Assembly: GCA_014379595.1 (NCBI GenBank)
Contig: JACMLM010000036.1
Coordinates: forward strand, 1-43,183
Length of the DNA: 43,183 nucleotides
Origin: Anaerolineales bacterium
GTDB lineage: Bacteria > Chloroflexota > Anaerolineae > Anaerolineales > Villigracilaceae
Direction of reading: 5' to 3'
The first letter of the stretch is position 1. Every line of letters starts with the position of its first letter. Positions 6,678-39,793 of the stretch are shown here, one piece after another. The notes under the pieces are model-generated. The model saw only the letters and a list, made by a program, of their open reading frames with translations. It searched no databases and was not told where the DNA came from. The position numbers were made by a program, and so were the translations under genes.

Positions 6678-6765
6678 AGATGTGTAGCTTGCTACATTAT
6701 TGAAAGCAATAAAAGAATCATGCGGAAATATGCAATACATCCTAGGGCAAAGATATGTGACTACA

Positions 6766-6810
6766 AAACGTGCAGTCATTTTTCAACTTCCAAGTAGAGA
6801 ATGTTGTCGA
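6766..6810 (+). repeat. Very degenerate attC-like segment
   Basis: AACGTGCAGTC, then TTTTTCAACTTCCAAG and TAGAGAATG, follow the order of blocks AGCGTGCAGCC, TTTTTCTGCTCCCAAG and CAGAGTCCACG in the better copies. Identity is low and the right end is not visible. It lies between the zinc-finger gene and the aldo/keto reductase. The rest of 6678-6887 shows nothing else. Confidence 0.25.
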
Positions 6811-6887
6811 TCCGATAACTAGAATAACCGCACAAAGATTTTTTAGTTGTACAATATCATCAAAGACTAACATTGTTTGGAGGTAGT

Positions 6888-7862: not shown

Positions 7863-7883
7863 AGTGCAAACCATTCTCTGCAT

Positions 7884-8351
7884 CTACGGATCTCTTCGTA
7901 TCTTCTCGCGTTCCTGATCCCATAATTTTACAAATCGTTCAAAGACATCAGAAATGATTTCCAGTTCTTTTTCCGAGTAACTTGAGATCAATTCATCTTG
8001 TGCCTTTCTTGCTGATTTAAACCATGAGGCGATTTTTTCGGCACCCGATTTCGTGGGAGCGATTAGAGTCCCACGGCGATCATCGGGATTAGGTCGCCGC
8101 TCGATCAAGCCTGGCTTTTCGAGCCGGTCAAGCATGGCGGTCGTCGCACCCGAAGTGAGACCCGTATGCCTGGCAAGTTCAGAAGGTGTGGCAACACCTT
8201 TGAAGAATAGAAGCCTGAGACATTCCATATCGGTGGCGTTGAGTCCCTGCGATTCGTCCATCGCGTTTCGGAACAGCGTTAAGTGAACGCCATATTCCCT
8301 TACCGCGATCAGGGCTCGTTTCTTCAGATCTGTTTTTGTAGAGTTCATCAT
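7884..8351 (-). CDS. MarR-family transcriptional regulator
   Basis: The 155-residue protein has the MarR winged helix fold. The recognition helix region is ATPSELARHTGLTSGATTAM and the wing is RRPNPDDRRGTLIAPT. MarR proteins are usually repressors released by small phenolic ligands. It is transcribed away from the DUF1801-like gene at 8443, and the shared 90-nt spacer holds a promoter and direct repeats, so control of both genes is plausible. The gene converges on the aldo/keto reductase, with 21 nt between stops. Confidence 0.92.
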   Translation of the reverse strand: MMNSTKTDLKKRALIAVREYGVHLTLFRNAMDESQGLNATDMECLRLLFFKGVATPSELARHTGLTSGATTAMLDRLEKPGLIERRPNPDDRRGTLIAPTKSGAEKIASWFKSARKAQDELISSYSEKELEIISDVFERFVKLWDQEREKIRRDP

Positions 8352-8360
8352 AGAATATCC

Positions 8361-8393
8361 TTGACATTATCTTTATTTTGAAGTATCTTTATT
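8361..8393 (+). promoter_or_regulatory. Promoter and direct repeats between MarR and DUF1801-like genes
   Basis: TTGACA (8361-8366), a 17-nt spacer and TATCTT (8384-8389) form a plausible + strand promoter for the gene at 8443. The decamer TATCTTTATT occurs twice (8369-8378 and 8384-8393), placed to bind a dimeric regulator over the promoter. That the MarR protein binds here is inferred. Confidence 0.5.
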
Positions 8394-8442
8394 GTATAAC
8401 TAAATTCTATTTAATGCAAGAGTTAATCAAAAGGAGATTTCC

Positions 8443-8904
8443 ATGAGCACAAAGACCGAAACGAAGAAGGCAGCAAGGAACACCACCACAAAATCCAAGG
8501 GATTCACAGCCGAGGAAAAAGCCGCGATGAAAGAGCGCGCCAAAGAGCTGAAGGCGGAAGCGGCCAAGGCGGATGGGGAAAGCACCCTGCTCGCGAAGAT
8601 CGCCGAGATGAAGGAACCGGATCGCAGCATGGCCAAACGGCTGCACGCCATTGTCACAGCTAACGCGCCTTCCCTCGCCCCGAAAACCTGGTACGGGATG
8701 CCAGCGTATGCAAACGCTGACGGCAAGATCGTCTGCTTCTTCCAAAGCGCGCAGAAGTTCGAAGCGAGGTACGCGACGTTCGGCTTCAATGACACGGCGA
8801 ACCTCGACGAAGGCCACATGTGGCCGACCTCCTTCGCACTCAAGGAGTTGACCCCTGCCGAAGAGGCAAAGATCGGAGCACTCGTGAAGAAAGCGATCCG
8901 CTGA
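8443..8904 (+). CDS. DUF1801-like / YdhG-type small protein
   Basis: The 153-residue product has a lysine-rich, probably disordered start (residues 1-60) and a C-terminal domain with [20 protein letters not shown] and RYATFGFN. This matches the DUF1801/YdhG family, whose members include proteins described as iron chaperones (Fra/YdhG). The molecular role is unclear. The start ATG follows AAGGAGATTTCC. Codon use is markedly more GC-rich than in neighbours, which suggests recent arrival from another genome. An intrinsic terminator follows. It is divergent from a MarR regulator. Confidence 0.78.
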
Positions 8905-8961
8905 AACTGATGCATCTGTTATAGACACAGACATAACATCATTTCCTGGTACAGTCGGTTC

Positions 8962-9007
8962 AAAAAAATCAGCCTCTATTTTAAAAATAGAAAGCTGATT
9001 TTTTTTC
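8962..9007 (+). terminator. Intrinsic terminator after the DUF1801-like gene
   Basis: The outer arms AAAAAATCAGC and GCTGATTTTTT enclose a second A/T-rich stem. The A-run and T-run on both sides could make it act in both directions. Confidence 0.75.
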
Positions 9008-9025
9008 AATTACTTACCTTCGAGA

Positions 9026-9062
9026 AGATCAACAAAGGCCTTCTTTGTCTTTGTTGATCTTT
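9026..9062 (+). terminator. Second hairpin, terminator-like
   Basis: AGATCAACAAAG pairs perfectly with CTTTGTTGATCT across 11 nt, followed by a short T-rich tail. It lies just 60 nt before the next gene, so it may also be an attenuator or a relict terminator. Confidence 0.5.
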
Positions 9063-9120
9063 CATTCCTTTTACAGGATTTTCCATACAAGCCACTTAAG
9101 AAGATGGGCAAGGAGCTATC

Positions 9121-9561
9121 ATGACAAGTTGGAAGAAATTCACAAATCAAGCCCCGCAATTTGCAGAATTTGGAAAAGCGCGCCTGCAAAGCGGCGTCGC
9201 TTATATTGGAACATTACGCGCGGATGGAAGCCCGCGCGTACATCCTTGCACTCCCATTATCGGTGAACAATTGTTTTTGTTCATGGAACCTACTTCGCCC
9301 AAAGGCAAGGACTTGCTGCGAGACCCACGCTATACATTGCATTGCTCCGTGGAAGATTCAAGCGGCGGCAATGGCGAATTCTACGTGCGTGGGCATGGAA
9401 AATTAACCAGCGATCCAATCCTTCGCGAACAGGCAGTACGTGTCTCTTCCTATGCTCCAGCAGATCGATACATCCTTTACATGTTCACGATCGAGTTTGC
9501 CTTTATGAACATCTATGTGGATGGCAAATCCAATACTCAACGCTGGCAATCACAAGAATAG
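9121..9561 (+). CDS. Pyridoxamine 5'-phosphate oxidase-like (PPOX) protein
   Basis: The 146-residue protein has the split-barrel FMN/F420-binding fold. The N-terminal pattern VAYIGTLRADGSPRVHPCTP is the hallmark strand pair, followed by LFLFMEPTSPKGKDLLRDPR and a central barrel strand EFYVRGHGKL. Members of this group bind FMN, heme or F420 and reduce or bind unknown substrates; true PNPOx activity is unlikely at this length. The ATG at 9121 follows AAGGAGCTATC. Confidence 0.85.
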   Translation: MTSWKKFTNQAPQFAEFGKARLQSGVAYIGTLRADGSPRVHPCTPIIGEQLFLFMEPTSPKGKDLLRDPRYTLHCSVEDSSGGNGEFYVRGHGKLTSDPILREQAVRVSSYAPADRYILYMFTIEFAFMNIYVDGKSNTQRWQSQE

Positions 9562-9869
9562 GTTTTGTGACCCAATCCCGATTATTACCATTGACGGGAT
9601 GTACAATCTTGACACCAACTGTCTATCAAAGATATAGTCAATCATTTGTGGGGATGGCAATAGATTTAGATTTCACTTGTATTCATTCTGATCGCTTCGC
9701 ATGAGCATCATCAAGAGCATCTCGATCTTCGGCAGGCACGAATCATTTCCTGTCAAAGGTAAAAAGCAGTTTGGAAAGGTGTTATTTATCTTATATTCAT
9801 TGTTCTCGTGTTCACAGGATTTGTTATATACTTTGCTTCAACAAACTGAGTCCAATGGATTGGAATAGC
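9562..9869. other. Gene-poor stretch with one doubtful 55-codon frame
   Basis: This 308-nt spacer has no clear gene. The only + strand frame of note starts with ATG at 9701 (MSIIKSISIFGRHESF) and stops at 9868, one base before repeat copy F. That position would suit a tiny cassette gene, but there is no ribosome site and no recognised family, so I leave it uncalled. The rest shows no repeat or RNA that I can support. Confidence 0.4.
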
Positions 9870-9920
9870 AGCCAACAAAGCGTGCCCCGAAGGGGTATAA
9901 CGCGAACCGCCTAGCCCGCT
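9870..9920 (+). repeat. attC-like intergenic repeat, copy F (short form)
   Basis: AGCCAACAAAGCGTG opens the element, GCCCCGAAGGGG makes a small stem in the centre, and AACGCGAACCGCCTAGCCCGC (in two blocks) closes it. The right end TAGCCCGCT followed by TATAAAG resembles copy D. The next gene starts 21 nt downstream. Confidence 0.5.
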
Positions 9921-9940
9921 CTATATAAAGAGAGGTACTT

Positions 9941-10831
9941 ATGAAATCAAAATCAAAGGATTTGAAAAAAAACGCATCCGCCAAGAAAGCTTCGCTTGGA
10001 CGCGTGCTTAAGAAAAATGAGAAAATCAAAGAGACTGTCAAGGAGGCTGCCAGTGAACTCACATCGGTAAATGAAGTTCTAAAGCAAGAAAAAATCCCTG
10101 TTCAGGTTATTAAACAGGCTCTTACTAAGAATGAAGATGTTGAACAAAAGGTTGCGAAAGCCGCAGACGATTTGAAGCTGGTTAACGCCAAGCTCGCCAA
10201 AGAATTGGCTGATCGAATAGTCATCGAATCAGAACTCGCCGATACGAAGACTGACCTGGCCGAAGTACGCGACGATTTATCAAAAGCCCAAGTAGAAAAG
10301 GAAGACGCACAACAAATTGCGCTTCAGGATGCGCACACGGGTCTTCCGAACCGTGTGTCATTTGAACAGGGTCTCGAACATGGGTTAAGCCAGGCAAAAC
10401 GGCACGGTTGGGGACTCGCAGTCCTATTTATTGACATCGACAAATTCAAGCGTATTAACGACTCTTATGGTCATGATGTTGGAGACCAGGTGCTACTAAT
10501 GGTGGCAAATCGTTTAAAGTCTTTTGTACGCGATGAAGATATGGTCAGTCGCTGGGGAGGCGACGAATTTGTATGCCTGTTGTTCGAAGTCAAGCAGGAA
10601 GCCGACGTGACTCGCCTTGCAGAGAAGATGATAAATCAGATTGCCGAAGACTGCGAGTTTAATGGGACTATTCTTTCCATTAAAGCCAGTATCGGTATTG
10701 CCATATATCCCACCGATGGAGAAACGGCTGACATTCTTTTCAAAAATGCCGATACAGCAATGTATAAAGCCAAGGGATCAAAGAAGCGAGTTGTACTGTT
10801 CCGAGAAGCTGGTGTGCGAAAAGCGGACTAA
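9941..10831 (+). CDS. Diguanylate cyclase with N-terminal coiled coil
   Basis: The 296-residue protein would make cyclic di-GMP from two GTP. Residues 1-125 are lysine/glutamate-rich and predicted coiled coil, with no sensor domain or membrane segment, so it is cytoplasmic. The GGDEF domain follows: DAHTGLPNRVSFE, LFIDIDKFKRINDSYGHDVG and the intact signature RWGGDEF. An allosteric inhibition site RDED sits five residues before GGDEF, so product feedback is probable. The C-terminal motifs IGIAIYPTDG and NADTAMYKAK are typical. It lies just after repeat F, with AGAGAGG as ribosome site. Confidence 0.92.
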   Translation: MKSKSKDLKKNASAKKASLGRVLKKNEKIKETVKEAASELTSVNEVLKQEKIPVQVIKQALTKNEDVEQKVAKAADDLKLVNAKLAKELADRIVIESELADTKTDLAEVRDDLSKAQVEKEDAQQIALQDAHTGLPNRVSFEQGLEHGLSQAKRHGWGLAVLFIDIDKFKRINDSYGHDVGDQVLLMVANRLKSFVRDEDMVSRWGGDEFVCLLFEVKQEADVTRLAEKMINQIAEDCEFNGTILSIKASIGIAIYPTDGETADILFKNADTAMYKAKGSKKRVVLFREAGVRKAD

Positions 10832-10897
10832 CATTGTGTTTGTATTAGATTTGTAGCGAAATACAACTTTATGGTTTTGTACCAAAAGGAGTAAGCT

Positions 10898-11032
10898 ATG
10901 GAACTCGGCAATTTCTCAATAAGTTTGGCAGTAAAGAATATCGATGCTTCAAAGTGCTTTTATCAGAAACTAGGATTTAATGTTTTCGGGGGAGATATCG
11001 CCCAGAAAAGGGCATTAAGCCAAATCCCATGA
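10898..11032 (+). pseudogene. Truncated VOC (glyoxalase-like) protein remnant
   Basis: A 44-codon frame begins with a strong ribosome site (AAAAGGAG). It encodes [20 protein letters not shown] and [12 protein letters not shown], the first beta-alpha-beta unit of a VOC-fold protein. Homology then breaks off and a stop follows, while a full VOC domain needs about 115 more residues. The stop overlaps the ATG of the next frame (ATGA), so translation may be coupled. I read it as a gene broken by a deletion or recombination event. Confidence 0.65.
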
Positions 11033-11370
11033 GAATAAGAAATGTCCTTCAGGAATACGAAGCAAAACTGGAACCTCCACCTGAGAGTCCCTTTCCGTCA
11101 TCACGTGCCAAAGCAGAATGGAAAGTATATGAAAATGGCACACGTCAATGCAAGGTTTCAGTGTCCAAATTAGATTTACCAGATGGCACAATACTGGAAC
11201 TCATCCTTGAGGACCGTCGAATCGCTAAACTCACTGTTCAAAACAGCATCGCGAGATATAAGCAAGAATCAGAGTTAGGTCAGATCGTGCCGGTAGTTGG
11301 AGTCAATCAGATCCTTCAAGTGATGTACGATGGCAAAGTAATTCTCGCAGGGCGGCTTTATTCGGAATAA
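11029..11370 (+). CDS. Hypothetical 113-residue protein
   Basis: The product is small, soluble and mostly beta-strand in appearance. It contains [20 protein letters not shown], then [20 protein letters not shown] and ends [10 protein letters not shown]. The pattern of an alternating hydrophobic barrel resembles metal-resistance or post-COAP-1-like anti-oxidant repeats seen in extracellular proteins, but I do not recognise a family. The start overlaps the stop of the VOC remnant by one codon shift. Repeat copy G follows directly. Confidence 0.6.
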
Positions 11371-11372
11371 AA

Positions 11373-11415
11373 GTTTTTCTGCTCACAAGCATAGTCCACG
11401 CGAACCGTTTGGCAG
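11373..11415 (+). repeat. attC-like intergenic repeat, copy G (shortened)
   Basis: TTTTTCTGCTCACAAGCATA, then GTCCACGC and GAACCGTTTGGC, represent the right two thirds of the element. The left box is missing. The stop codon of the upstream gene abuts it and the next gene starts 15 nt after it. Confidence 0.45.
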
Positions 11416-11430
11416 ATCGGAGCATTATAA

Positions 11431-11979
11431 ATGTCGTCTAATCAAATGCATCAAATTAATATTCGGGTTATACACAGCAAATTAATTTCCGAAACATTGA
11501 AAAAGGAAATTATTTCACTTTGCAACCGTGCCTACGAAGAAGATATGGAACCTCTGTTTGAAACATTTATTGATGCAACTCATCTTCTTGGCTATTCTGA
11601 TGGTGTATTAGTCAGCCACGCTTTATGGGTCACTCGCTATCTGCAAGCGGGAACAGATCCCATCATGCATACTGCATATATAGAAGCAGTGGCAACGGAC
11701 TCAAATTACCGTAATCGCGGCTTTGCTGCATCCCTCATGAAGCATCTAATCGGTGAGATTCAAGATTATGAATTGGCTGCGTTATCGCCTTTTAGTGTTG
11801 AGTATTATGGTCGGCTTGGTTGGGAAATTTGGCATGGCCCACTATTTATTAGAACACACGATGAATTGTTAACTTCTCCAAATAATGAAGAGGTTATGAT
11901 TTTTCGGCTTCCAAAAACACCTGCTCTAGATTTGAACGCTCCACTTTCAGCAGAATGGAGAGCAGGAGAACTTTGGTAA
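11431..11979 (+). CDS. GNAT acetyltransferase, AAC(2')-I-like
   Basis: The 182-residue protein is a GNAT domain. The acetyl-CoA motif is EAVATDSNYRNRGFAASLMK, followed by SVEYYGRLGWEIWHGPLF. The C-terminus LSAEWRAGELW closely follows the ending pattern of aminoglycoside 2'-N-acetyltransferases (Phe/Trp-Arg-Gly-Gly-Asp-Gln-Trp in that family). The overall length also fits AAC(2')-I. I infer a relative of that group; activity on aminoglycosides cannot be claimed, as many such homologues have housekeeping roles. It lies directly behind repeat G, with GGAG 8 nt before the ATG. Confidence 0.75.
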   Translation: MSSNQMHQINIRVIHSKLISETLKKEIISLCNRAYEEDMEPLFETFIDATHLLGYSDGVLVSHALWVTRYLQAGTDPIMHTAYIEAVATDSNYRNRGFAASLMKHLIGEIQDYELAALSPFSVEYYGRLGWEIWHGPLFIRTHDELLTSPNNEEVMIFRLPKTPALDLNAPLSAEWRAGELW

Positions 11980-11998
11980 TTATCTCCTAAGGGTCATT

Positions 11999-12511
11999 AT
12001 GCAAGCAAAAGATCAGAACCCGTTTAACCCTCAAGCGAGTCGGCCTGATATGCCGGAATATGGGCTGCTCAATGCTGATCAAGGTCAGGGCTTGCTGCCG
12101 TGGAGTTGGGCAGAAGAACGGCTGGAACGATCTCATAATTATTGGGTATCCACAACGCGCCCCGATGGACGACCTCATGCTACCGCTGTTTGGGGTGTCT
12201 GGTGGGACAACGCTTTTTATTTCAGTTCGGGTCGCCTCACACGTAAAGCGCGCAATCTTGCTCAGAACGCAAATTGTGTAATATGTACTGAAAGTGCTGC
12301 GCAAGCTGTGATTGTAGAAGGCGTTGCTCAACTGGTTGGCAATGGTGAAACTCTTGGGATGCTGGGGCAGGTGTATCGAGCAAAATATGACTCAGATTAT
12401 CCGAGTGAGTCAAATATATACATCGTTCATCCAAAAGTAGTCTTTGGCTTTATTGAGGCGGAAACAGAGTTTAGCGGTAGTGCAACACGCTGGATAATTA
12501 TGAGCAAGTGA
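11999..12511 (+). CDS. PPOX-class flavin/F420-dependent protein
   Basis: The 170-residue protein has a split-barrel fold. The key strands are NYWVSTTRPDGRPHATAVWG and NAFYFSSGRLTRKARNLAQN, with GVAQLVGNGETL later. This is the F420/FMN-binding pyridoxamine oxidase-like group, probably a reductase of unknown substrate. The gene starts 19 nt after the GNAT stop and could share its transcript (AAGGGTC ribosome site is weak). It is unrelated in detail to the PPOX protein at 9121. Confidence 0.85.
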   Translation: MQAKDQNPFNPQASRPDMPEYGLLNADQGQGLLPWSWAEERLERSHNYWVSTTRPDGRPHATAVWGVWWDNAFYFSSGRLTRKARNLAQNANCVICTESAAQAVIVEGVAQLVGNGETLGMLGQVYRAKYDSDYPSESNIYIVHPKVVFGFIEAETEFSGSATRWIIMSK

Positions 12512-12536
12512 GTGTAATAGTATTCCGTTGCTATCT

Positions 12537-12777
12537 TCAATGAAATATTGGTCAAAGTACATGCCGCATCTTCAAACCCCGCTGACTGGCACACCATGCG
12601 AGCCGAACGGTTCCTGGCTCGCACTGCAAACGGACTTCTCAAACCTAGAAATCCCAGGCTTGCCGCGGATCTGGCAGGGCGGGTTGAAGCCGTTGGCAAA
12701 AACGTAAAGCAGTTACAAGTAGGGGATGATGTATTTGGTGAAATGCCCCTGGAGGGGTTGGGAAGTTTTGCCAAATT
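12537..12777 (+). pseudogene. MDR alcohol dehydrogenase fragment (both ends missing)
   Basis: In frame this encodes EILVKVHAASSNPADWHTMR through VGDDVFGEMPLEGLGSFAKF. This matches residues about 29-110 of the complete dehydrogenase at 18246 (which has EVLVKVHAASINYADW and PGDDVFGDI). The first 28 residues and the whole cofactor domain are gone. The match ends within about 15 nt of the stop of the opposite-strand sulfotransferase gene, so that gene's arrival or a recombination event probably cut it. Confidence 0.8.
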
Positions 12778-12789
12778 TTTCTGTCAACA

Positions 12790-13476
12790 CTACTTTTTGC
12801 TATCTGAGTCGGTGAGGATTTTTTTTGCTATTTTCTTTTCAAAGGAAGCGCCCTCATTCGAATGGGGAAACGACGTTGATGGGACGGGCACGCCCAGAAA
12901 ACTACAAAGTGGCTCCCAGCCGTCTTTCACTTCAAATACAAGCAGGCGGTCAGCTGGAACGGTTTTCTTCACTTCCTCCGTCCAGGCGTTGAAGATTGCT
13001 ATCGTGTGTTCGCGGTCGTTGGTACGCCCTTTGAAAACATCTTCCCGAATCAAATCACCAATTTGGATGTGAATATCGGGGAACACCCGTGCTGTCATTG
13101 AGAACAATCCGAAAAGACGAATCAAGACAAGCATAAAATTTGGCAACCGCCTGAAAATGGTTTTGGAGGCGCTGTCATACCATTTCTCTGGGTCGCGGAC
13201 GGTCAGAACAACTTTGGCATTGGGGTATTGCTTCATGAATTCTTTGTAATAGAGCGCGGCGGGAAAATCTGTGCAAGATTGAAAACCCTTGAAAAGGAGT
13301 TCGTAATCAGGCACTTCCCCCCGCTGGAGTTTTTTCCATTCAGGCAGGTGTTCGGGGAGGATTTCAAAGGCATGATAGCATTTGCCAAAACCAAGTTGTT
13401 CAAGAGCCATTTTCAAGGATTCAGTGCCTGTTCTTCCGAAGCCTGCTCCAATGACTTTCAATTGATCGGTGCTCAT
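12790..13476 (-). CDS. Sulfotransferase-family protein
   Basis: The 228-residue protein would move a sulfuryl group from PAPS to an unknown acceptor. The 5'-phosphosulfate loop is GAGFGRTGTESLKMAL (residues 10-25) and the 3'-phosphate region is KVVLTVRDPEKWYDSA. The ending DRLLVFEVKDGWEPLCSFLG is the usual late motif of this group (Sulfotransfer_4-like, also found in eukaryote-like NAD-dependent epimerase neighbours). The ATG at 13476 follows GGAGATAG. It is a lone minus-strand gene between two dehydrogenase copies. Confidence 0.88.
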   Translation of the reverse strand: MSTDQLKVIGAGFGRTGTESLKMALEQLGFGKCYHAFEILPEHLPEWKKLQRGEVPDYELLFKGFQSCTDFPAALYYKEFMKQYPNAKVVLTVRDPEKWYDSASKTIFRRLPNFMLVLIRLFGLFSMTARVFPDIHIQIGDLIREDVFKGRTNDREHTIAIFNAWTEEVKKTVPADRLLVFEVKDGWEPLCSFLGVPVPSTSFPHSNEGASFEKKIAKKILTDSDSKK

Positions 13477-28804: not shown

Positions 28805-29791
28805 ATGGAAGTTTCACGAATAGAAAATCTGCCTCCACCCCCTGGCGTGATCAGTTCAATAAAAGCTGGCTTTGATACGATTGCTTCTCACATTACAGCA
28901 ATTCTATTGCCTTTGCTTTTAAACTTGTTCCTCTGGCTCGGCCCGCGCCTGCGTATTAATGTGTTGTTCGATTCGATCAAAAGCGATTTGATCACCATTT
29001 GGCAAACTGGCGGAGTACCAGCTTCAGATATTCAACTCGTTTTGGATGGATATGACAAGACGATTCCGTTTGTGAATTTATTCTGGCTTTTTCGTACGCT
29101 TCCGATCGGGATCTCAAGCCTGCTCTTTCCCCAAGATGTATCTCAAACGCCTTTAGGGAGTCCTTCCATTTTACAAGTGAACGCGTGGACTTTTCTTGGC
29201 TGGATATTCCTGCTGACCTTAGTCGGATGGATCGGCGGTGGATTGTATTTTCGCAGTGTGGCATGGCTCGCAACTGCAAATGAAGATGACCAACCTCTGA
29301 GCATTTATCGCACCATTGTCCAAACGATTCTTGTATCCATTTTCTGGAGCATTCTTTCGATGGTCATTGCTTTGCCCGTGTTTTTTGTTTTGGCACTGGT
29401 GATTCAAATTAGCCCGCTTATCGCGAATATTCTAGTGTTATTTCTAAGCTTAGTATCCATGTGGGTCATTGTCCCTTTATTTTTTTGGCCGCATGGAGTT
29501 TTTATCAAGAGACAAAATGTGTTCACTTCCATTATAAGCAGTGTGCAGATGGCACGTTTTACACTTCCCACAAGCAGTATGTTCGTGTTGACAGTGTTCC
29601 TGCTTACATTCGGGTTAAATTTTCTGTGGAGTATGCCTCCTGAAGATTCCTGGATGACGCTTTTGGGAATCTTCGGTCATTCATTCGTCTCCACAGCTTT
29701 GCTAGCGAGCAGCTTCATTTATTATCGTGACATGAACGTCTGGCTGCAAAATGTGATCGAGAAATTACGTCCTATAACAAAAAAAGCATAA
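28805..29791 (+). CDS. Membrane protein upstream of gyrB
   Basis: The 328-residue product has six predicted helices, the first at about residues 28-45 (ITAILLPLLLNLFLWLGPRL), then four from about 113 to 230 and the last near 255-275. A region around 60-105 would face outside. No family is recognised. No ribosome site precedes the ATG, while TAGAAT at about 28789 could be a -10 giving a nearly leaderless message. gyrB starts 26 nt after its stop, so the two share a transcript. Confidence 0.68.
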   Translation: MEVSRIENLPPPPGVISSIKAGFDTIASHITAILLPLLLNLFLWLGPRLRINVLFDSIKSDLITIWQTGGVPASDIQLVLDGYDKTIPFVNLFWLFRTLPIGISSLLFPQDVSQTPLGSPSILQVNAWTFLGWIFLLTLVGWIGGGLYFRSVAWLATANEDDQPLSIYRTIVQTILVSIFWSILSMVIALPVFFVLALVIQISPLIANILVLFLSLVSMWVIVPLFFWPHGVFIKRQNVFTSIISSVQMARFTLPTSSMFVLTVFLLTFGLNFLWSMPPEDSWMTLLGIFGHSFVSTALLASSFIYYRDMNVWLQNVIEKLRPITKKA

Positions 29792-31773: not shown

Positions 31774-31810
31774 AACTCACCGCGAAATTATTCTTCGCGG
31801 TGAGTTTTTT
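31774..31810 (+). terminator. Intrinsic terminator after gyrB
   Basis: AACTCACCGCGAA pairs with TTCGCGGTGAGTT across a short loop and is followed by TTTTT. It isolates gyrB from the histidine kinase gene. Confidence 0.9.
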
Positions 31811-31887
31811 AATCCATATCACCTTTCTTGTTTGTCATGAAAGTACCATACACTCTCCCAACGGTTGTAGTGTACAATCCGAATACT

Positions 31888-34800
31888 ATGGTCACTCAAA
31901 GTATTCAGCGCAACGTGCAGCTTAGTTTGCAGCGCTCCAACACTCTTGTAAATCAAACCTTGCAATGGGTTGTGCTGGCATATCAGGCACTTGCAGTGGT
32001 CATTTTTATACTTGGTTTGTTTTTGGCAAATGGATGGTTTCAACAACCATTCCTTGGGGCGTTTTATGAACATACGATGGTATTTAATGGAACAGGCCCT
32101 AGTACGCCTGATCCTGCTTGGGCATTATATGAACAAGTTGTTGTGGGAGATCAACTGATCGCCATCAACGATACGCCAGTTCGTAGTTCCGATGAAGTAA
32201 GCGCTCTCTTGCAAGATCTTTCCATCGGAGAAAATGTAACAGTGACAGTGCGCTCAGAAAGCGGGGAGGAACGTAGTTCGGCTATTACTTTATCTGAATT
32301 TCCCTCGTCCAGCCGTACTGTTTATTTTCTTATTCCTTCGATATTAAGTTTCATTTTTATTGTGGCAAGTTTGTGGATCTTTGGCTTGCGCCGCAATGAA
32401 CCAGCAGGCCGCGCTTTTTCCCTCTTTACATCATCTCTTGCCATTATCACAGGTGCATATTTTAATGTCAGCACCATGCATCAATTTACACTGGTGTGGA
32501 CTGTCGCATGTGCTCTTTCGGGCGGTGCACTCATTGATCTCGCGCTTTGCTTCCCGCTTGAACCTCGGTCTGTTATCAATCGTCCTTACCTGAGATTGGT
32601 TGGGATATTTATCGGGTTAATATTAGCCGTTCAGGCTTTTACAACATTGTTTAATTTCGAAAAGCCGACTGCTTATATTACAAGCTGGCAGTATATTTTT
32701 GGCTTTATTGCGCTAAGTGTTGTTCTCTATATCGGCATAAATCTATATCATGCTGTTTATGCCCAATCTCCTGTCATAAAAATACAATCCCGAACCATTC
32801 TTTATGGCACTACTCTTGCTTTCATTCCCATTGGCATTTGGTTAGCTGTTAAAAGTTTTAATACAAATATAAACTTTTCGCCATATCTATTTCTACCTCT
32901 GGCTTTGTTTCCTTTGGTAATCGGCTATACCATTTTACGTTTCCGCTTCCTTCGCACTGATGATATTGTTCGGAGCGGATTTATGTACCTCCTGCTTACA
33001 GTTTTTGTAGTGGGCGGATATGTGCTGCTCGTTACCGGAATAGGTCTAGTTTCACAAACGCAATTGCCTGCCAATAATGCATTCCTCGTAGGTGGATATA
33101 TATTTGTGCTCGCTCTTGTACTGGAGCCGATCCGCACGAAATTGCAAAGCCTTTTAGATACTGTATTCTTCCGTGGTGAACGCGCCTTTGCTGAACAACT
33201 TGAGGGCTTCTCCCACAAACTCACCACCGCATTGGACCTCAACACAATTGGCACTGCCCTGCGCGAACAGATCGCTTCAACACTTAACCCGAGCCGGATC
33301 CACATCTATACATATGATTCGCTCAACGACTATTTCTCTGCCTTGCCCGGTGCAGATCGCCGCCCCACAAGCGATATCCGTTTCGCAGCTACAAGTCCAT
33401 TTGCTCGTTATTTTGAAACGGAACGTCTGCCGCTATATTTGGATAATACTGCGTCATTGCCTCCAGCCTTACAATCTGAGCAATCACGGCTTGCATTGCT
33501 TGGCGCGCGTTTGTTCATTGTTTTAGTGGGTAAACAACGTGAAAATGGCTGGCTGGCTTTAGGTCCGCGTTTATCGGGTCAGCCGTATACGCCGCGTGAC
33601 TTGAGATTCCTTGAGAATATTTGCGACCAGGCTTCTATTGCGATTGAACGCGTTCAAACTGTTGCACATCTTGAACGCCAGATTTTGGAAATGAATGCGC
33701 TAACGCGTGTATCGCAGGGCGTAAACGTTACATTGACTTTTGATGATGTGCTTGAATTGATCTATGCTCAAACATCGCAAATTATTCCAACTTCACATTT
33801 TCATATTACGCTTTTTAACAAAGATAGCGATTACTATTATTATGGCTTCTGCGTGGAGAATAACGAGCGAATTCCCGATCGTGAGAATCTGCCCTTTTCG
33901 ACGAATACAGGACTCAGTCCAGAAGTGATTCGCAAAGGCCGCCCGATCATCACGCAGGATTACATCCGTGAATGCCAGGCGCGCAGTCACACGCCAGTCC
34001 TCGAAAATGTATTTGCATGGATGGGTGTGCCACTTAACGCAGGCGCCAAATCGATTGGTGCGCTTAGCATTGGCAGCCGTGATGGCGGAACAGTTTATAC
34101 GCGCGGACAACTTGAACTTTTACAGGCGATTGCCGATCAAACCGCAGGTGCCATTGTAAAAGCACGTTTGCTTGAAGAAACGCAACAACGTGCACATCAG
34201 CTTTCCACTTTAAATGAAATTACACAACAATTAACATCAACACTTGAACTGGGACCGCTGCTTCAAAATATTCTTGAGAACGCTGTAGGCATTTTGAATT
34301 GCGAAGCAGGTAGTTTATTCATGGTGGATGATCAAACTGGCGAATTGGTTTTCAGAGTTACGGTTGGGCCTGTTGCTACGAATCTGATTGGTCAACGTTT
34401 ACCGCCTGGTACTGGCATTGTTGGACGTGCGGCGCAATCGCGCGGGCCTGTGATTGAAAATGAAGATCAACGTACTGCCACAAGATTCAGCGGTGTTGAT
34501 CAGCAGACTGGGTTTGTCAGCCGTTCATTGATGGCTGTGCCTTTGCAGGCAAAAGATCATGTCACCGGTGTAATTGAAGTTATCAACCGTCGTGATGGTC
34601 TGCCCTTTGTGGAGGACGATCAAAGTCTCTTGACTGCGTTTGCAGGACAAGCTGCCGTTGCCATTGAAAATGCCCGCCTCTATGAACTTACAGATCAGGA
34701 ACTTGCCGCCCGCGTGGAAGAGCTTTCGGTCATGCAGCGCATTGATCGTGAATTGAATGCCAGCCTTGAAATGGATCGCGCCATGCGCATCACATTGGAT

Positions 34801-35907
34801 TGGGCTTTGCGTCAATCTGGGGCAGAAGCGGGCCTGATCGGTATGTTGGAAGAAGGTCTGCTGCGCGTGATGTCGCATCAAGGATTCGACGAACGCATGG
34901 AAAACCTGCCCGATCAAACCTTGAAAGTGGAGATTCCAGCCATGATCCTGGCATTGGAAAGCGGTCAGCCGCAGCGTTTGACAGTTGGGACATCAAGAGA
35001 TAAATTGCTTCCCGCTGCACATACACAAATGGTAATTCCTATTCGCCGTGAAACCGCAGTAATTGGATTGCTTCATCTGGAAAGCACAAGCGATTCATTG
35101 GTGGATATTGACTTTCTGACCCGCCTCACCGATCATGCCGCCATTGCCATCTCCAATGCACAGTTGTTTGGTGAAGTGCAACGTGCTAATCTTGCCAAGA
35201 GTGACTTTGTTTCTTTTGTGGCGCATGAATTAAAGAACCCAATGACCTCTATTAAAGGGTATACAGAATTATTGGCTGGCGGGGCAGTGGGGCAGATCAA
35301 TGAAATGCAAAATAACTTCCTCACTACGATTAAATCCAATGTGGAGAGAATGTCCACTTTGGTCTCAGATCTCAATGATAATGCCAAGATCGAAGCAGGA
35401 CGCTTGCGCTTTGAATATAAAGCCACCAATGCAGCAGAACTTGTAGATGAAGTAGTTCGTTCTCTTAAACGTCAAATTGAAGATAAGAAACAGACGTTGG
35501 AGATCGTTATCCCTGCAAAACTCTCTCCCATGTGGGCAGATCGAACTCGCGTTGGACAGGTGCTTACCAATCTGGCTAGTAATTCCTTTAAATACACACC
35601 CGAAGGTGGAATATTGCAAATAGGTGTGGAAGAAGCTGTAAACCAATGGGATGCTGAAGGTGCTGCGCGAGTCATTCATCTTTGGGTCAAGGATAATGGT
35701 ATCGGTTTATCTCCTGAAGATCAACAAAAAATGTTCCAAAAATTCTTCCGTTCTGATGACCCGAAAGCACGTGAAGCACCGGGTACAGGTTTGGGTTTGA
35801 ATATTACGAAGAGCCTTGTTGAAATGCAGGGCGGCAAGATCTGGTTTGAAAGTGAATACCGTAAAGGTACAACCTTTCATTTCACCGTTCCAGTGGCTGA
35901 AGAGTAG
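31888..35907 (+). CDS. Membrane histidine kinase with PDZ-like and four GAF domains
   Basis: The product of about 1339 residues is a hybrid sensor. A TM helix (about 27-49) is followed by an external PDZ-like region (about 70-140, with VVVGDQLIAINDTPVRSSDE), then seven helices to about 415. Inside the cell come four GAF-type domains (roughly 430-600, 615-770, 775-930, 945-1090), the HisKA box (phosphoacceptor H1113 in VAHELKNPMTSIKGY) and the HATPase domain (N1232, DNGIGL near 1269, GTGLGL near 1299). No response regulator lies nearby. A TACAAT at 31873 sits 10 nt before ATG 31888 and no ribosome site is visible, so I chose this as a leaderless start; ATG 31837 or TTG 31828 would add 17-20 residues. 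Confidence 0.9.
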   Translation: MVTQSIQRNVQLSLQRSNTLVNQTLQWVVLAYQALAVVIFILGLFLANGWFQQPFLGAFYEHTMVFNGTGPSTPDPAWALYEQVVVGDQLIAINDTPVRSSDEVSALLQDLSIGENVTVTVRSESGEERSSAITLSEFPSSSRTVYFLIPSILSFIFIVASLWIFGLRRNEPAGRAFSLFTSSLAIITGAYFNVSTMHQFTLVWTVACALSGGALIDLALCFPLEPRSVINRPYLRLVGIFIGLILAVQAFTTLFNFEKPTAYITSWQYIFGFIALSVVLYIGINLYHAVYAQSPVIKIQSRTILYGTTLAFIPIGIWLAVKSFNTNINFSPYLFLPLALFPLVIGYTILRFRFLRTDDIVRSGFMYLLLTVFVVGGYVLLVTGIGLVSQTQLPANNAFLVGGYIFVLALVLEPIRTKLQSLLDTVFFRGERAFAEQLEGFSHKLTTALDLNTIGTALREQIASTLNPSRIHIYTYDSLNDYFSALPGADRRPTSDIRFAATSPFARYFETERLPLYLDNTASLPPALQSEQSRLALLGARLFIVLVGKQRENGWLALGPRLSGQPYTPRDLRFLENICDQASIAIERVQTVAHLERQILEMNALTRVSQGVNVTLTFDDVLELIYAQTSQIIPTSHFHITLFNKDSDYYYYGFCVENNERIPDRENLPFSTNTGLSPEVIRKGRPIITQDYIRECQARSHTPVLENVFAWMGVPLNAGAKSIGALSIGSRDGGTVYTRGQLELLQAIADQTAGAIVKARLLEETQQRAHQLSTLNEITQQLTSTLELGPLLQNILENAVGILNCEAGSLFMVDDQTGELVFRVTVGPVATNLIGQRLPPGTGIVGRAAQSRGPVIENEDQRTATRFSGVDQQTGFVSRSLMAVPLQAKDHVTGVIEVINRRDGLPFVEDDQSLLTAFAGQAAVAIENARLYELTDQELAARVEELSVMQRIDRELNASLEMDRAMRITLDWALRQSGAEAGLIGMLEEGLLRVMSHQGFDERMENLPDQTLKVEIPAMILALESGQPQRLTVGTSRDKLLPAAHTQMVIPIRRETAVIGLLHLESTSDSLVDIDFLTRLTDHAAIAISNAQLFGEVQRANLAKSDFVSFVAHELKNPMTSIKGYTELLAGGAVGQINEMQNNFLTTIKSNVERMSTLVSDLNDNAKIEAGRLRFEYKATNAAELVDEVVRSLKRQIEDKKQTLEIVIPAKLSPMWADRTRVGQVLTNLASNSFKYTPEGGILQIGVEEAVNQWDAEGAARVIHLWVKDNGIGLSPEDQQKMFQKFFRSDDPKAREAPGTGLGLNITKSLVEMQGGKIWFESEYRKGTTFHFTVPVAEE

Positions 35908-35919
35908 TGAGTTGTTGAT

Positions 35920-37077
35920 ATGACAGTCGTTTCGTCAGTAGGATATGCACAAGCGCTTGATGGGCGTGAAGCAGGTTTACAGGCGTCACATCAAGCCTTG
36001 AATCGACTGGGTGCTAATGTGCCGGGTTTTGCTGTGGTGATCGCATCGCATCAATATCAGGCGCGCGAAGTGTTGAATGGTGTAAGCAGCCTCCTGGGTG
36101 ATACTCCCATGATCGGCTTTAGTTCTCCCGCCGGGCTTTCTCAAGATGGTCAACATCCACACTCGGTAGTAGTTGCTCTCTTAAGTGGTGATTTTCAAGC
36201 AGATACGATGTGGTTTCCCGGCTATGCACAGTCCGGGCGGGAAACTGCTGCAAAGATCGTGCAGCATGCTCAGGCGCGGGCCGAACGTCAATCCATTCTT
36301 TTCTTTGCAGATGGATTCAATGGCGATGCCGAACAATTTTGCGGAGCGATCGCACCTGATTTAAATATCACAGGCGCACTTTCCAGCGGTGATCTTCATA
36401 CCGGGAATACGTATCAAATGGCGGGCAGTCAAACCGGCACGGGCGGAGTAGTTGCCGCCTTTCTGCGCGGAAATCTAAAAGTAGGGGTTGGGTACGATCA
36501 TGGCTGGGATCCGGTTGGGAGTCAATTCCGTGTTACACGTTCACGCGGATTCTGGCTTCGTACTTTGGATGGCCGCCCTGCTTCTGAAACATATGCCAGT
36601 TTGTTTGGTTATCCTGCTCGCGATTGGGCATTTCCTCCATTAAATTATCTGGCGCGTTTATATCCCCTGGGCGTGGAACAGGGCGAAGACCTCGTAGTTC
36701 GCGCTCCGATCCGTGTGGAAGCAGATGGTAGTTTCCGTATGAATGCGACCATCCGCGACGGGATCGATGCCTATTTACTCGTTGGAAGCCGTGTTGCTTG
36801 TGAGCGAGCCGCAAGACAAGCCACGCAACAAGCCTTGTTGCAGCTTGGTGATGCAAAGCCCGCTTTTGCCCTCGTCCTTGTAGATGTCGCCTGGCAAATG
36901 CTGCTCAAAGCACAACCTGGTGCAGAGATTGCTGCAGTGCAGGAAATCCTTGGCACCAAAATTCCAATTGCAGGCGGGTACACATTAGGTCAGGTTGCTT
37001 CCACTGGAACTACAACACCGAAGTTCTTAAACCAACATATTGTGGTTATAGTTTTTGCTGAGGCGAACCAAAACTAA
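35920..37077 (+). CDS. FIST-domain protein (N plus C domains)
   Basis: The 385-residue protein is a soluble FIST sensor, a domain thought to bind small ligands such as amino acids. The N domain includes VPGFAVVIASHQYQAREVLN and DTPMIGFSSPAGLSQDGQHP; the FIST_C part runs from about residue 220, with YASLFGYPARDWAFPPLNYL and a late GYTLGQVASTG. The gene starts 12 nt after the histidine kinase stop and is surely co-transcribed. I infer that it feeds ligand information to the kinase. The kinase output partner is not in the window. Confidence 0.9.
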   Translation: MTVVSSVGYAQALDGREAGLQASHQALNRLGANVPGFAVVIASHQYQAREVLNGVSSLLGDTPMIGFSSPAGLSQDGQHPHSVVVALLSGDFQADTMWFPGYAQSGRETAAKIVQHAQARAERQSILFFADGFNGDAEQFCGAIAPDLNITGALSSGDLHTGNTYQMAGSQTGTGGVVAAFLRGNLKVGVGYDHGWDPVGSQFRVTRSRGFWLRTLDGRPASETYASLFGYPARDWAFPPLNYLARLYPLGVEQGEDLVVRAPIRVEADGSFRMNATIRDGIDAYLLVGSRVACERAARQATQQALLQLGDAKPAFALVLVDVAWQMLLKAQPGAEIAAVQEILGTKIPIAGGYTLGQVASTGTTTPKFLNQHIVVIVFAEANQN

Positions 37078-37089
37078 CAGGAGGAAATT

Positions 37090-37500
37090 ATGGCAGGTAA
37101 AAAGAAAAGAAGCGGATCGACGAACGCAGGCAATGGCAGTATTGTCATTGGCGGTAATGTGGATCGAAGCAACATTGTTGCAGGGAATAATAATATGGTT
37201 TCAAATCAAAGCATTAATATCGCGCCTCTCTTTGAAACCATATATCATTTTGTTGAAACAAATCGCAAACTTCAAGCTGGAAAAAAACAGGATGCAAAGG
37301 AAGAACTTCAAGAAATTCAAGCTGCACTTGAAGAACCAAAACCTGACGAGAACTTTATCACGCGGCGGTTTCGAAATTTGAAACGCATGGCTCCCGAAAT
37401 TGTGGAAGTTGTTTTTGAAACACTCAAGAATCCAGTAGGTGGGGTGTCAGAAGTTATCAAAAGAATTTCAAAAAAGATGGCCGAAGAAGCGAATACATAA
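37090..37500 (+). CDS. Hypothetical protein with Gly/Asn-rich strand motif
   Basis: The 136-residue protein begins with a basic stretch, then SIVIGGNVDRSNIVAGNNNM, a GGN-x-IV-x-GN pattern that would fold as a short beta-solenoid rung. A helical middle (ETIYHFVETNRKLQAGKKQD; AKEELQEIQAALEEPKPDEN) and a basic C-terminal helix follow. The same pattern often marks small signalling or caspase/STAND-linked proteins in Chloroflexota, but I cannot name a family. The AGGAGG ribosome site is excellent. It begins 12 nt after the FIST gene, so it is the third gene of that operon. Confidence 0.72.
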   Translation: MAGKKKRSGSTNAGNGSIVIGGNVDRSNIVAGNNNMVSNQSINIAPLFETIYHFVETNRKLQAGKKQDAKEELQEIQAALEEPKPDENFITRRFRNLKRMAPEIVEVVFETLKNPVGGVSEVIKRISKKMAEEANT

Positions 37501-37510
37501 GAGTACAATT

Positions 37511-37539
37511 AACTGGCGGAACCTCCGTCAGTTTTTTTT
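37511..37539 (+). terminator. Intrinsic terminator ending the kinase operon
   Basis: AACTGGCGGA pairs with TCCGTCAGTT (one G-T pair) and runs into TTTTTTTT. It directly precedes the lipoprotein gene. Confidence 0.9.
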
Positions 37540-37554
37540 ATTGAAAGGATAAAA

Positions 37555-38280
37555 ATGAAACTCAAAATCTTTTTGCCCATCCTGATTGTTTTGACTTTCT
37601 CAAGCTGTTCAGTCCCAGTGGATGTGCCACCGTCTCCGACTGCCCTGGCAATTGCTACTACGCAACCAAATTTGATCGCATCTCCAACATTTACTCCCAT
37701 CCCCGCGCTGACACAGCCTCCAGCTTCTACACAGGTACAGCCTGCATCAACTGCTGTCCAACCTCCTGTATCAACCACTACACTTCCATTTTGTGATGAT
37801 CCGCGCACTCGTGAATTGATCAATTCTTTTAGTGCGGCGATTGCAACCAAAGATGGGCCGTTACTCGCGTCACTTGTCTCGCCTGCCTCTGGTATGGATG
37901 TGCGTTTTTATCGCGATGGCAATGTTGTCAACTATGATGTGGAACATGCGAAGTTTGTCTTTGAAACCACATTTCAAGCAGACTGGGGGCTTTCCTTTGG
38001 AAGCGGCGAATCTACACTCGGTTCATTTCAGGAGATTATCCTACCTTCTTTACAACTGGTATTTACACCAAATGCTGCGGTGGTATGCAATCAACTCAAA
38101 GTTGGTGGTGCAACTTATCAGCCCGTTTGGCCGTACCAAAACTTGAATTATTACTCTGTGCATTTCCCCGGCACAGACCAATACGGAGGAATGGATTGGG
38201 AGACGTGGGTCGTGGGTATGGATAATGTGGGAGGCAAACCCCATCTGGCAGCACTTGTCCATTTTGTGTGGGAGCCATAG
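37555..38280 (+). CDS. Secreted lipoprotein with Pro/Thr linker
   Basis: The 241-residue protein has a signal with the lipobox FSSC, placing the lipidated cysteine near residue 19. A Pro/Thr/Ser/Gln-rich linker of about 55 residues follows, as in many Chloroflexota surface proteins. The C-terminal domain (about 78-241) has two cysteines and the strand-rich segment WPYQNLNYYSVHFPG, followed by WETWVVGMDNVGGKPHLAAL. It looks like an NTF2-like or SnoaL-type fold of unknown role. AAAGGATAAAA precedes the ATG. Confidence 0.75.
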   Translation: MKLKIFLPILIVLTFSSCSVPVDVPPSPTALAIATTQPNLIASPTFTPIPALTQPPASTQVQPASTAVQPPVSTTTLPFCDDPRTRELINSFSAAIATKDGPLLASLVSPASGMDVRFYRDGNVVNYDVEHAKFVFETTFQADWGLSFGSGESTLGSFQEIILPSLQLVFTPNAAVVCNQLKVGGATYQPVWPYQNLNYYSVHFPGTDQYGGMDWETWVVGMDNVGGKPHLAALVHFVWEP

Positions 38281-38427: not shown

Positions 38428-38853
38428 ATGACCTGTTCAGAAGATTACGCCCCTCAACTGCATGCCCGTGGGTATCGCATGACGCCTCAAAGACATGCAA
38501 TTCTTCATGTCCTTTGTGATTCAGGCAAACATCTGTCGCCTACTGAAGTCTATCAGCAAGCGCGTGAACAACTGACTAGCCTGACTGAAACGACAGTTTA
38601 TCGAACGTTGGAATTTCTTGTAGAGAACGAATTAGCGCGCCCTGCCCATATGGGAAATGGGCATCTTGTTTATGAGATCGCGCGCCATGAACATCATCAT
38701 TTGAAATGTCGTAATTGTGGAGATGAAATAGAGGTTGAACATGCCCTACTTTCAAAAGTTTATCGTCAATTAGAGTCTGCAAGCGGCTACCGCTTGACAG
38801 ATAGCCATGTCACATTTTTTGGTCTTTGTGCACATTGTCAAAAAGGAGATTAA
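38428..38853 (+). CDS. Fur-family metal-dependent repressor (Nur-like by context)
   Basis: The 141-residue protein has a winged helix (YRMTPQRHAILHVLCDSGKH; TETTVYRTLEFLVENELARP) and the metal-rich dimerisation half (HEHHHLKCRNCGDEIEVEH, and CAHC at the end). The four cysteines form the structural zinc site. Upstream codons to 38395 cover the operator, so ATG 38428 is the likely start. The operator TTGCAA-N4-TTGCAA and the cbiM-cbiQ-cbiO genes downstream point to nickel or cobalt as effector rather than iron or zinc. The specific metal is an inference. Confidence 0.88.
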   Translation: MTCSEDYAPQLHARGYRMTPQRHAILHVLCDSGKHLSPTEVYQQAREQLTSLTETTVYRTLEFLVENELARPAHMGNGHLVYEIARHEHHHLKCRNCGDEIEVEHALLSKVYRQLESASGYRLTDSHVTFFGLCAHCQKGD

Positions 38854-38854
38854 C

Positions 38855-39793
38855 ATGCATTACTCACCCGTACCCATGCACATCCCCGATGGTTTTCTTA
38901 CTATTTTTGTATCGGTCATTTGTTGGGGTATTACAATTTTCACGCTTGGCCTTTCCATCTCAAAAACAAATAAGGCGCTTGGCGAAAAACAGATTCCATT
39001 AATGGGTGTAATGGCTGCTTTCATCTTCGCCGCACAAATGATCAACTTTCCTGTTGCGGGAGGAACTTCCGGGCACTTGCTTGGCGGAGCAATGGCCGCG
39101 ATTGTGCTTGGTCCCTGGGCCGGCATGCTGGTGATGACTGCCGTCATTGCCGTGCAGGCATTACTCTTTCAAGATGGAGGCCTTGTTGTAATGGGTGCGA
39201 ACATTTTAAACATGGGATTGCTGACATCCGCAGTTGGTTATGGATTGTATCGTTCTGTTTCCGGACAATCTAATAATAAGGTGAAACTTGCCGTTGCCGG
39301 GGTTGCAGCATGGCTCTCTGTAATGACCGGTGCTTTGATCACATCCCTTGAGCTATGGTTAAGTGGTATCTCAGATTTACAAGTTGTCGTTCCTGCCATG
39401 CTTTGGGTACATGCAGTTATCGGACTTGGCGAAGCATTAATTACCGTATCTGCTTTGGGTTTTATCTTCCGCACCCGTCCCGATTTACTTGGCGAAGGCT
39501 CTGAGTCGGCGATGGGCAGCCGCAACTGGGCTTATGTTGGCGGATTGATAGCACTCATAGTCGTTTTATTCTCACCTTTTGCATCCTCTAACCCTGATGG
39601 TCTTGAGCGTGTTGCCGGGGATTTAGGTTTTCTCAATGCAGGCCAATCTGCTCCCTATTCTATTATTCCTGATTACACATTACCTTTCCTCGGTGAGACT
39701 GCACTCTCAACAATTGCAGCTGGAGTCATCGGTGTATTGGTTGTTGGTGTAATTGCAATACTTATTGGCCGTGGTATGAAGGCAAAGGCGTAA
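38855..39793 (+). CDS. cbiM: ECF transporter S component CbiM/NikM fused to PDGLE domain
   Basis: The 312-residue protein is the substrate-binding membrane subunit of a cobalt/nickel energy-coupling-factor transporter. The family start motif MHIPDGFL appears at residues 8-15, with six or so helices to about 220. A C-terminal unit with SNPDGLERVAGDLGF and one helix is the PDGLE (CbiN-like) domain, so a separate cbiN is not needed. The start ATG 38855 has AAGGAG. Since metal binding needs the His of MHI near the N-terminus, either processing removes seven residues or translation begins at ATG 38876. It lies one base after the Fur-family stop, so all are one operon. Confidence 0.9.
   Translation: MHYSPVPMHIPDGFLTIFVSVICWGITIFTLGLSISKTNKALGEKQIPLMGVMAAFIFAAQMINFPVAGGTSGHLLGGAMAAIVLGPWAGMLVMTAVIAVQALLFQDGGLVVMGANILNMGLLTSAVGYGLYRSVSGQSNNKVKLAVAGVAAWLSVMTGALITSLELWLSGISDLQVVVPAMLWVHAVIGLGEALITVSALGFIFRTRPDLLGEGSESAMGSRNWAYVGGLIALIVVLFSPFASSNPDGLERVAGDLGFLNAGQSAPYSIIPDYTLPFLGETALSTIAAGVIGVLVVGVIAILIGRGMKAKA

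Follow-up and report, generated by a model that had tools for sequence, protein, structure and literature searches.

Counter-invader systems of the STAND NTPase-FGS type combine a NACHT/STAND ATPase with a C-terminal FGE domain, and its adaptor domains are shared with neighboring effector genes. In the excerpts of the two reports on which we draw (Kaur et al. 2021, PMC8195603; Dore et al. 2024, PMC10907252), the shared domains are EAD or bDLD, and retroelements often, though not always, diversify the FGE end; the second report contains both "amyloid signaling motif" and "Chloroflexi." A second set of described systems, the bacterial NLR amyloid pairs BASS1 to BASS10 (Dyrka et al. 2020, via excerpts of PMC7889193 and PMC8086366), consists of neighboring genes that share a short G/N-rich motif, which is N-terminal on the receptor. 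The partner motif is C-terminal on Bell proteins, and some partners have TIR or CHAT domains in place of Bell (PMC7889193, in part). The general arrangement of NLR amyloid signaling is covered in parts of PMC7889193, PMC8086366, PMC9815663, PMC12261475, and PMC7885112, and the first of these, as excerpted, indicates that bacterial amyloid signaling is known mainly from actinobacteria and cyanobacteria.

Here, we analyze a locus in an Anaerolineales genome of 4.47 Mb (72 contigs, 95% completeness); the window is one entire contig of 43,183 bases (G000:C40). It encodes a 136-residue protein, P136, behind a histidine kinase and a FIST sensor protein. In relatives, P136 stands behind a NACHT ATPase with a C-terminal FGE domain, the receptor plan of the STAND-FGS systems, and an adaptor element is likewise common to the neighboring genes. 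That element is a motif of about 30 residues, with a TCAD2-like bundle on the partner, in place of EAD or bDLD, and high conservation marks the FGE end in the 19 orthologues compared. As in BASS pairs, the motif is short, G/N-rich, and N-terminal on the receptor, and TIR partners occur in both kinds of system; in contrast to Bell proteins, P136 bears its motif at the N terminus, on a helical bundle that lacks a hydrophobic helix. On the basis of gene order, co-occurrence, the absence of the receptor here, the common motif, and domain matches, we consider it likely that P136 is a homotypic adaptor of a NACHT-FGE conflict system that was orphaned by a deletion and is now the last gene of a kinase-FIST unit.

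The kinase-FIST unit

All three genes are real and closely set in the window, as a first-pass annotation had stated; 12 bp separate each pair.

31774..31806, + strand: terminator-like stem-loop after gyrB, with a 13-pair stem and a T tail; probable upstream limit of the kinase-FIST-P136 unit
31828..35907, + strand: membrane histidine kinase, 1,359 aa from a TTG start
35920..37077, + strand: FIST sensor protein, 385 aa, with FIST N (Pfam E 3.8e-34) and FIST_C (1.2e-15)
37078..37089, + strand: FIST-P136 junction, 12 bp, with an AGGAGG ribosome-binding site
37090..37500, + strand: P136, 136 aa, from the orthologue and neighborhood survey the probable orphan partner of a NACHT-FGE receptor
37511..37533, + strand: terminator-like stem-loop after P136, whose stem resembles that of most relatives having one

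A consensus scan for terminators placed none between FIST and P136, and it yielded eight sites in the region against 7.4 expected from shuffles. P136 in the window is probably now transcribed together with the kinase and FIST genes as the last gene of the unit.

The kinase frame opens with TTG at 31828, and the previously assigned start at 31888 is an in-frame ATG. Pfam domains comprise four GAF stretches, HisKA (residues 1123 to 1191), and HATPase_c (residues 1238 to 1357). The annotation had also described an external PDZ-like region and a seven-helix unit. Its four GAF domains stand, and the region is best called only PDZ-like because its PDZ_6 match (residues 105 to 142) scores 25.4 bits, under the Pfam cut-off of 27. 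"Seven-helix" and "external" are not established, since in a simple Kyte-Doolittle scan that region is preceded by one hydrophobic segment and followed by about eight. The FIST assignment holds, with both domains above the Pfam cut-off. It was correctly noted, too, that no response regulator is encoded nearby: the genome has 84 Response_reg matches, none of them on this contig and none with a signal of linkage to the kinase, whose response regulator is presumably encoded at another locus.

NosP-type FIST proteins are encoded beside histidine kinases, a pairing also found in the window. The window FIST protein differs in scoring only 32.3 bits against the NCBIfam NosP model, far below the cut-off of 450, which places it outside NosP, and its kinase partner is membrane-bound with four GAF domains. 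Our survey covered 37 genomes of the genus, the window genome counted in, and the kinase lies beside FIST in all 37 (the window, 17 loci, 5 P136-bearing genomes, and 14 P136-less genomes). The pair is thus a truly conserved unit, in which FIST would act as accessory sensor to a multi-GAF histidine kinase of the membrane.

A 328-aa protein encoded at window positions 28805 to 29791, hydrophobic by eye and with no Pfam match, also lies beside gyrB in several congeners. Downstream of P136, positions 37555 to 38280 encode a 241-aa protein (LP241) with no Pfam match, lipoprotein-like by eye, which stands beside a Fur gene in many congeners.

Neighborhood of P136 in related genomes

An orthologue of P136 was found in 23 of the 37 congeners (E 5e-37 or better), and in 22 of these the gene directly upstream encodes a NACHT ATPase of about 876 residues with a C-terminal FGE/SUMF1 domain. 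The window genome is the only one of the 37 that has P136 and lacks a NACHT orthologue. For co-occurrence of the two genes, Fisher p is 2.5e-9, or 5.3e-8 with the fragment in G020 counted; neither value is corrected for kinship. In G020, a NACHT fragment lies at a contig end and P136 was not detected; it may sit just off that end. The NACHT gene is cut by a contig edge at the place upstream of P136 in three genomes (G013, G010, and G011), and it is frame-broken in G017, where the kinase is likewise in pieces. Nine relatives of P136 in GTDB contigs carry names, and all nine are titled as Anaerolineales, Anaerolinea, Brevefilum, or Chloroflexi MAGs.

FIST lies upstream of NACHT on the same contig in 19 genomes (17 that also have P136, plus G010 and G011). 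A PALP-family (pyridoxal-phosphate enzyme) gene is upstream of NACHT in G002 and G009. The G006 cassette stands close to a contig edge, behind a gene of the phage integrase family; FIST of that genome is on another contig, followed by other genes. Thirteen congeners have neither P136 nor a NACHT orthologue, and what follows FIST in these differs: LP241, the next ancestral gene, in five, FUR in one, PALP-like and LP241 genes in two, and other genes in the last five.

The FIST-NACHT gap in relatives is about 109 bp or more, and the NACHT-P136 gap is at most 33 bp in 14 of 18 de-duplicated loci (8 to 10 bp in 7). In a consensus scan with no shuffle control, 13 of these 18 loci have a terminator-like site between FIST and NACHT and 14 have one after P136; a site between NACHT and P136 occurs in 1. 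The scan took 22 loci, from which L010, L012, L013, and L014 were removed as the same or nearly identical genomes to L051, L046, L054, and L053, respectively; of the remaining 18, 16 come from congeners and two, L008 and L011, from named MAGs. Outside the scan were L045, L047, L048, L061, and L063, which have no FIST on the contig, and the frame-broken L009/L050. Taken together, P136 very probably belongs with the NACHT gene and not with the kinase-FIST pair.

In the relatives' receptors, NACHT and the C-terminal FGE domain are both above cut-off (50.4 and 157 bits in L046; 46.6 and 157.6 bits in L051). The best solved match by sequence for the FGE end is SUMF2, and an AF2 model of the NACHT-FGE protein is unusable (mean pLDDT 33). 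Of the 19 orthologues compared one is cut short; in the 18 complete ones, approximately the last 40 residues hardly vary. The idea of a hypervariable FGE sensor is unsupported by this conserved C terminus, which bears no sign of retroelement diversification.

STAND-FGS systems as described in PMC8195603 and PMC10907252 include TRADD-N proteins, and an Anaerolineales bacterium is the source of one. Comparable is a NACHT-FGE gene in G004 (L060, positions 8587 to 12069) whose product is extended at the N terminus by a TRADD-N-like region (19.1 bits, under the cut-off of 23.7) and also bears a further copy of the motif. G004 has P136 as well, and this apparent fusion would tie TRADD-N to the NACHT-FGE/P136 system.

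The P136 protein

The annotation had called P136 unrecognized, and this no longer applies: its C-terminal half is TCAD2-like, and the protein resembles the C-terminal part of a candidate defense protein. Two parts can be distinguished.

37120..37212, + strand: N-terminal homotypic motif, residues 11 to 41, a candidate amyloid-type signaling motif (shuffle and profile tests)
37222..37491, + strand: TCAD2-like five-helix bundle, residues 45 to 134 (profile matches, AF2 model)

We use the term TCAD2-like because the window protein scores 16.1 bits against TCAD2 (PF19971), under the curated cut-off of 27, although all 10 aligned P136 members, the window's among them, match with E values no higher than 0.1, the best being 4.6e-9. 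Two paralogues at other loci exceed the cut-off; one has the architecture TIR-motif-TCAD2, and the other is a protein of 145 aa that stands alone. The TCAD name comes from ternary systems (PMC7159879 and PMC10910872, in part). P136 also matches positions 151 to 243 of the 267 of the PADLOC candidate defense protein PDC-M14B (E 1.9e-6), that is, its C-terminal region, whereas the N-terminal approximately 150 positions of PDC-M14B are missing from P136.

The AF2 monomer has a mean pLDDT of 71. Foldseek gave no match at E ≤ 0.001, and the search by sequence for solved relatives gave none that is convincing (best E 0.19). The best VIA match is the CCM2 harmonin-homology domain (Z 6.8, rmsd 2.9, 79 residues aligned), and we make no fold claim because this Z lies in the range that the tool states to be common for helical bundles. 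The highest 19-residue Kyte-Doolittle value is 0.76, and the lack of a hydrophobic helix disfavors P136 as a Bell-like membrane effector. The literature that we searched, with Dyrka et al. 2020 and most subscription papers outside its scope, yielded nothing on P136 or its motif.

The shared motif

The GGN-x-IV-x-GN motif that the annotation had noted in P136 is real. Its wider pattern, I-x-I-G-G-N-V...G-S-N-I..G-N-N, is common to the N termini of P136 and the NACHT protein: aligned to the NACHT N terminus of L046, the P136 proteins of the window and of L046 each score 50, reached by 0 of 1,000 shuffles. Against the motifs of five other conflict proteins no shuffle in 1,000 reached the score of the window motif, and against a sixth 7 did. 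The motif is thus more than mere composition, since shuffles seldom reach its score. A receptor and its neighboring partner share it in all five pairs compared, which were picked by hand and by eye.

L046: NACHT/P136, 0/1,000 shuffles
L083, window's own genome: nSTAND1-WD40/TIR, 0/1,000 shuffles
L068, congener: nSTAND1/TIR-TCAD2, 0/1,000 shuffles
L069, other family: NACHT (frame-broken)/TCAD2-like, 0/1,000 shuffles
L169, other family: NACHT-FGE/caspase, 0/1,000 shuffles

The two genes flanking an nSTAND1-WD40 gene in L070 also share it (0/1,000). Among the cross-system comparisons, the L046 NACHT protein against the L083 TIR protein gave 92/1,000, which is not significant, and against the L083 STAND protein 3/1,000, which is weak.

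Carriers in the window's own genome are two TIR proteins, an nSTAND1-WD40 protein, a TIR-TRADD-N-NB-ARC-TPR protein, and an NB-ARC-TPR protein. Six of the eight own-genome matches were themselves rows of the profile; of the two others, at E 0.004 to 0.005, one is a Roc-COR protein and one is NB-ARC-like, with 20.6 bits against a cut-off of 23.5. A strict profile search (cut-off 1e-6, at which weaker copies such as those of L169 in G049 are not counted) was positive in 27 of 61 genomes and only 2 of 22 genera, so that the motif in its present form is narrowly distributed. At L083 (G000:C59, 6722 to 11421), a TIR protein ending in GKIQIGGNV...GNNN lies directly before an nSTAND1-WD40 gene whose product has a similar N-terminal motif.

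How far does the system resemble BASS pairs? An NLR-type NTPase stands beside the partner in all 22 other P136-bearing congeners and is lacking in the window; the motif is common to the receptor N terminus and the partner; and P136 lacks the hydrophobic transmembrane helix of a Bell partner. Comparison of the P136 motif with the published BASS3 peptide gave p 0.19 and with an archaeal peptide p 0.15, neither significant. Assignment of the motif to BASS3 is unsupported: across ten comparisons with the two published peptides the lowest p values were 0.01, 0.02, and 0.04, none of them for P136. P136 had no RHIM match in Pfam at E up to 1, and in place of the RHIM/BASS3 G-phi-Q-phi-G core (PMC7885112, in part) it has S-I-V-I-G, which lacks the central Q. 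Judged from its sequence, the motif appears BASS-like in its working and not a member of BASS3 or RHIM, because the BASS3 alignment is nonsignificant, the RHIM Q is absent, and the motif is N-terminal with no hydrophobic helix.

Proposed history and mechanism

We propose that two unrelated modules meet in the window, a conserved kinase-FIST pair and what would be the remnant of a two-gene NLR-like system of NACHT-FGE receptor and P136. The simplest history would be a deletion with one edge at the end of FIST and the other at the P136 ribosome-binding site, by which the terminator and the receptor were lost and P136 was joined to the kinase-FIST genes. P136 might then be a relic, or it might serve other motif-bearing TIR/STAND proteins of the cell as a shared adaptor.

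P136 could be no more than a relic that is being lost now that its receptor is deleted; this reading is compatible with the history above and a real possibility, though we lean against it. The receptor is absent from the assembly, 13 congeners have neither gene, and the window P136 is slightly farther from one of four outgroups (L064; 0.48, against 0.41 to 0.47 for the seven NACHT-bearing orthologues compared). Its distances to the other three outgroups, in contrast, lie inside the range of those orthologues, its nucleotide changes fall mostly at third codon positions, and its frame, ribosome-binding site, and terminator are all intact, a picture that a recent deletion would also produce.

In the relatives, the C-terminal FGE domain, of C-type-lectin fold, may sense a ligand, upon which the NACHT ATPase would oligomerize and its N-terminal motif would template the matching motif of P136; the TCAD2-like bundles so gathered could form an adaptor or effector platform. 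Assembly of receptor and partner through the motif is moderately likely, and amyloid templating by it is a tentative suggestion that we put just short of even. The motif could instead be an ordinary beta-solenoid or a glycine-asparagine linker for stable oligomerization, which is less likely than not. The nonsignificant similarity to BASS3 fits this alternative, as does the AF2 monomer, in which the motif is under pLDDT 50 with no confident structure; against it, the placement on a receptor N terminus, a neighboring partner, and varied effectors follows that of NLR amyloid signalosomes (PMC7889193, as excerpted), and one own-genome TIR protein has a literal IQIG core.

It is quite improbable that the missing NACHT gene reflects misassembly of the MAG. 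The evidence is one contig of one genome, and a strain mixture is likewise conceivable, yet the junction lies inside the contig, and its ribosome-binding site is still a good one. The 72 contigs (95% completeness) contain no NACHT orthologue at E up to 1e-60; a threshold relaxed to 1e-5 gives 10 weak matches, nine to pieces of FGE and one to the ATPase, with 25 to 43% identity, far below the 81 to 100% of the orthologues.

The first-pass proposal, in which P136 would belong to the kinase-FIST two-component pathway as a new component in its own right, is very improbable, and such an ancestral role is largely refuted: the 12-bp spacing, the probable co-transcription, and an intact frame evolving at a rate near that of NACHT-bearing orthologues mean that P136 may still be used, but it is undetected in 14 of the 37 congeners that keep the kinase-FIST pair, an absence that the annotation itself had named as refuting its idea, it adjoins NACHT in 22 of 23, and a terminator-like site parts FIST from NACHT in 13 of 18 loci.

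With P136 read as an orphaned adaptor, a supposed new two-component part gives way to a recognizable immune-type receptor-partner pair, and the locus becomes a natural case of a receptor lost and a partner kept. The motif is also common to varied conflict proteins of Anaerolineales, beyond the actinobacteria and cyanobacteria of the main reports (PMC7889193, in part), and the motif proteins of the window's own genome are possible partners of P136 in trans. A bolder extension, which we regard as unlikely, is that I-x-I-G-G-N-V-x-G-S-N-I-x-x-G-N-N-N represents a further prion-like NLR motif family, a common plug among Anaerolineales NACHT, nSTAND1-WD40, NB-ARC, Roc-COR, TIR, and caspase proteins, with P136 as a stand-alone TCAD2 adaptor that receptor loss rewired to FIST-kinase control and that serves other receptors in trans.

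Three further loci deserve mention. At L067 (G018:C11, 6773 to 8710), after several genes of unknown function, a protein with a P-loop by eye and no Pfam match ends in the motif and a TCAD2-like region. At L169 (G049, another family; 6762 to 13267), a NACHT-FGE homologue that is 57% identical has as its neighbor a caspase (Peptidase_C14) with a C-terminal motif, again beside cbiMQO-like genes. In the window itself, positions 38807 to 39793 encode CbiM matches followed by CbiN matches (residues 244 to 322), a CbiMN fusion that precedes CbiQ and an ABC ATPase.
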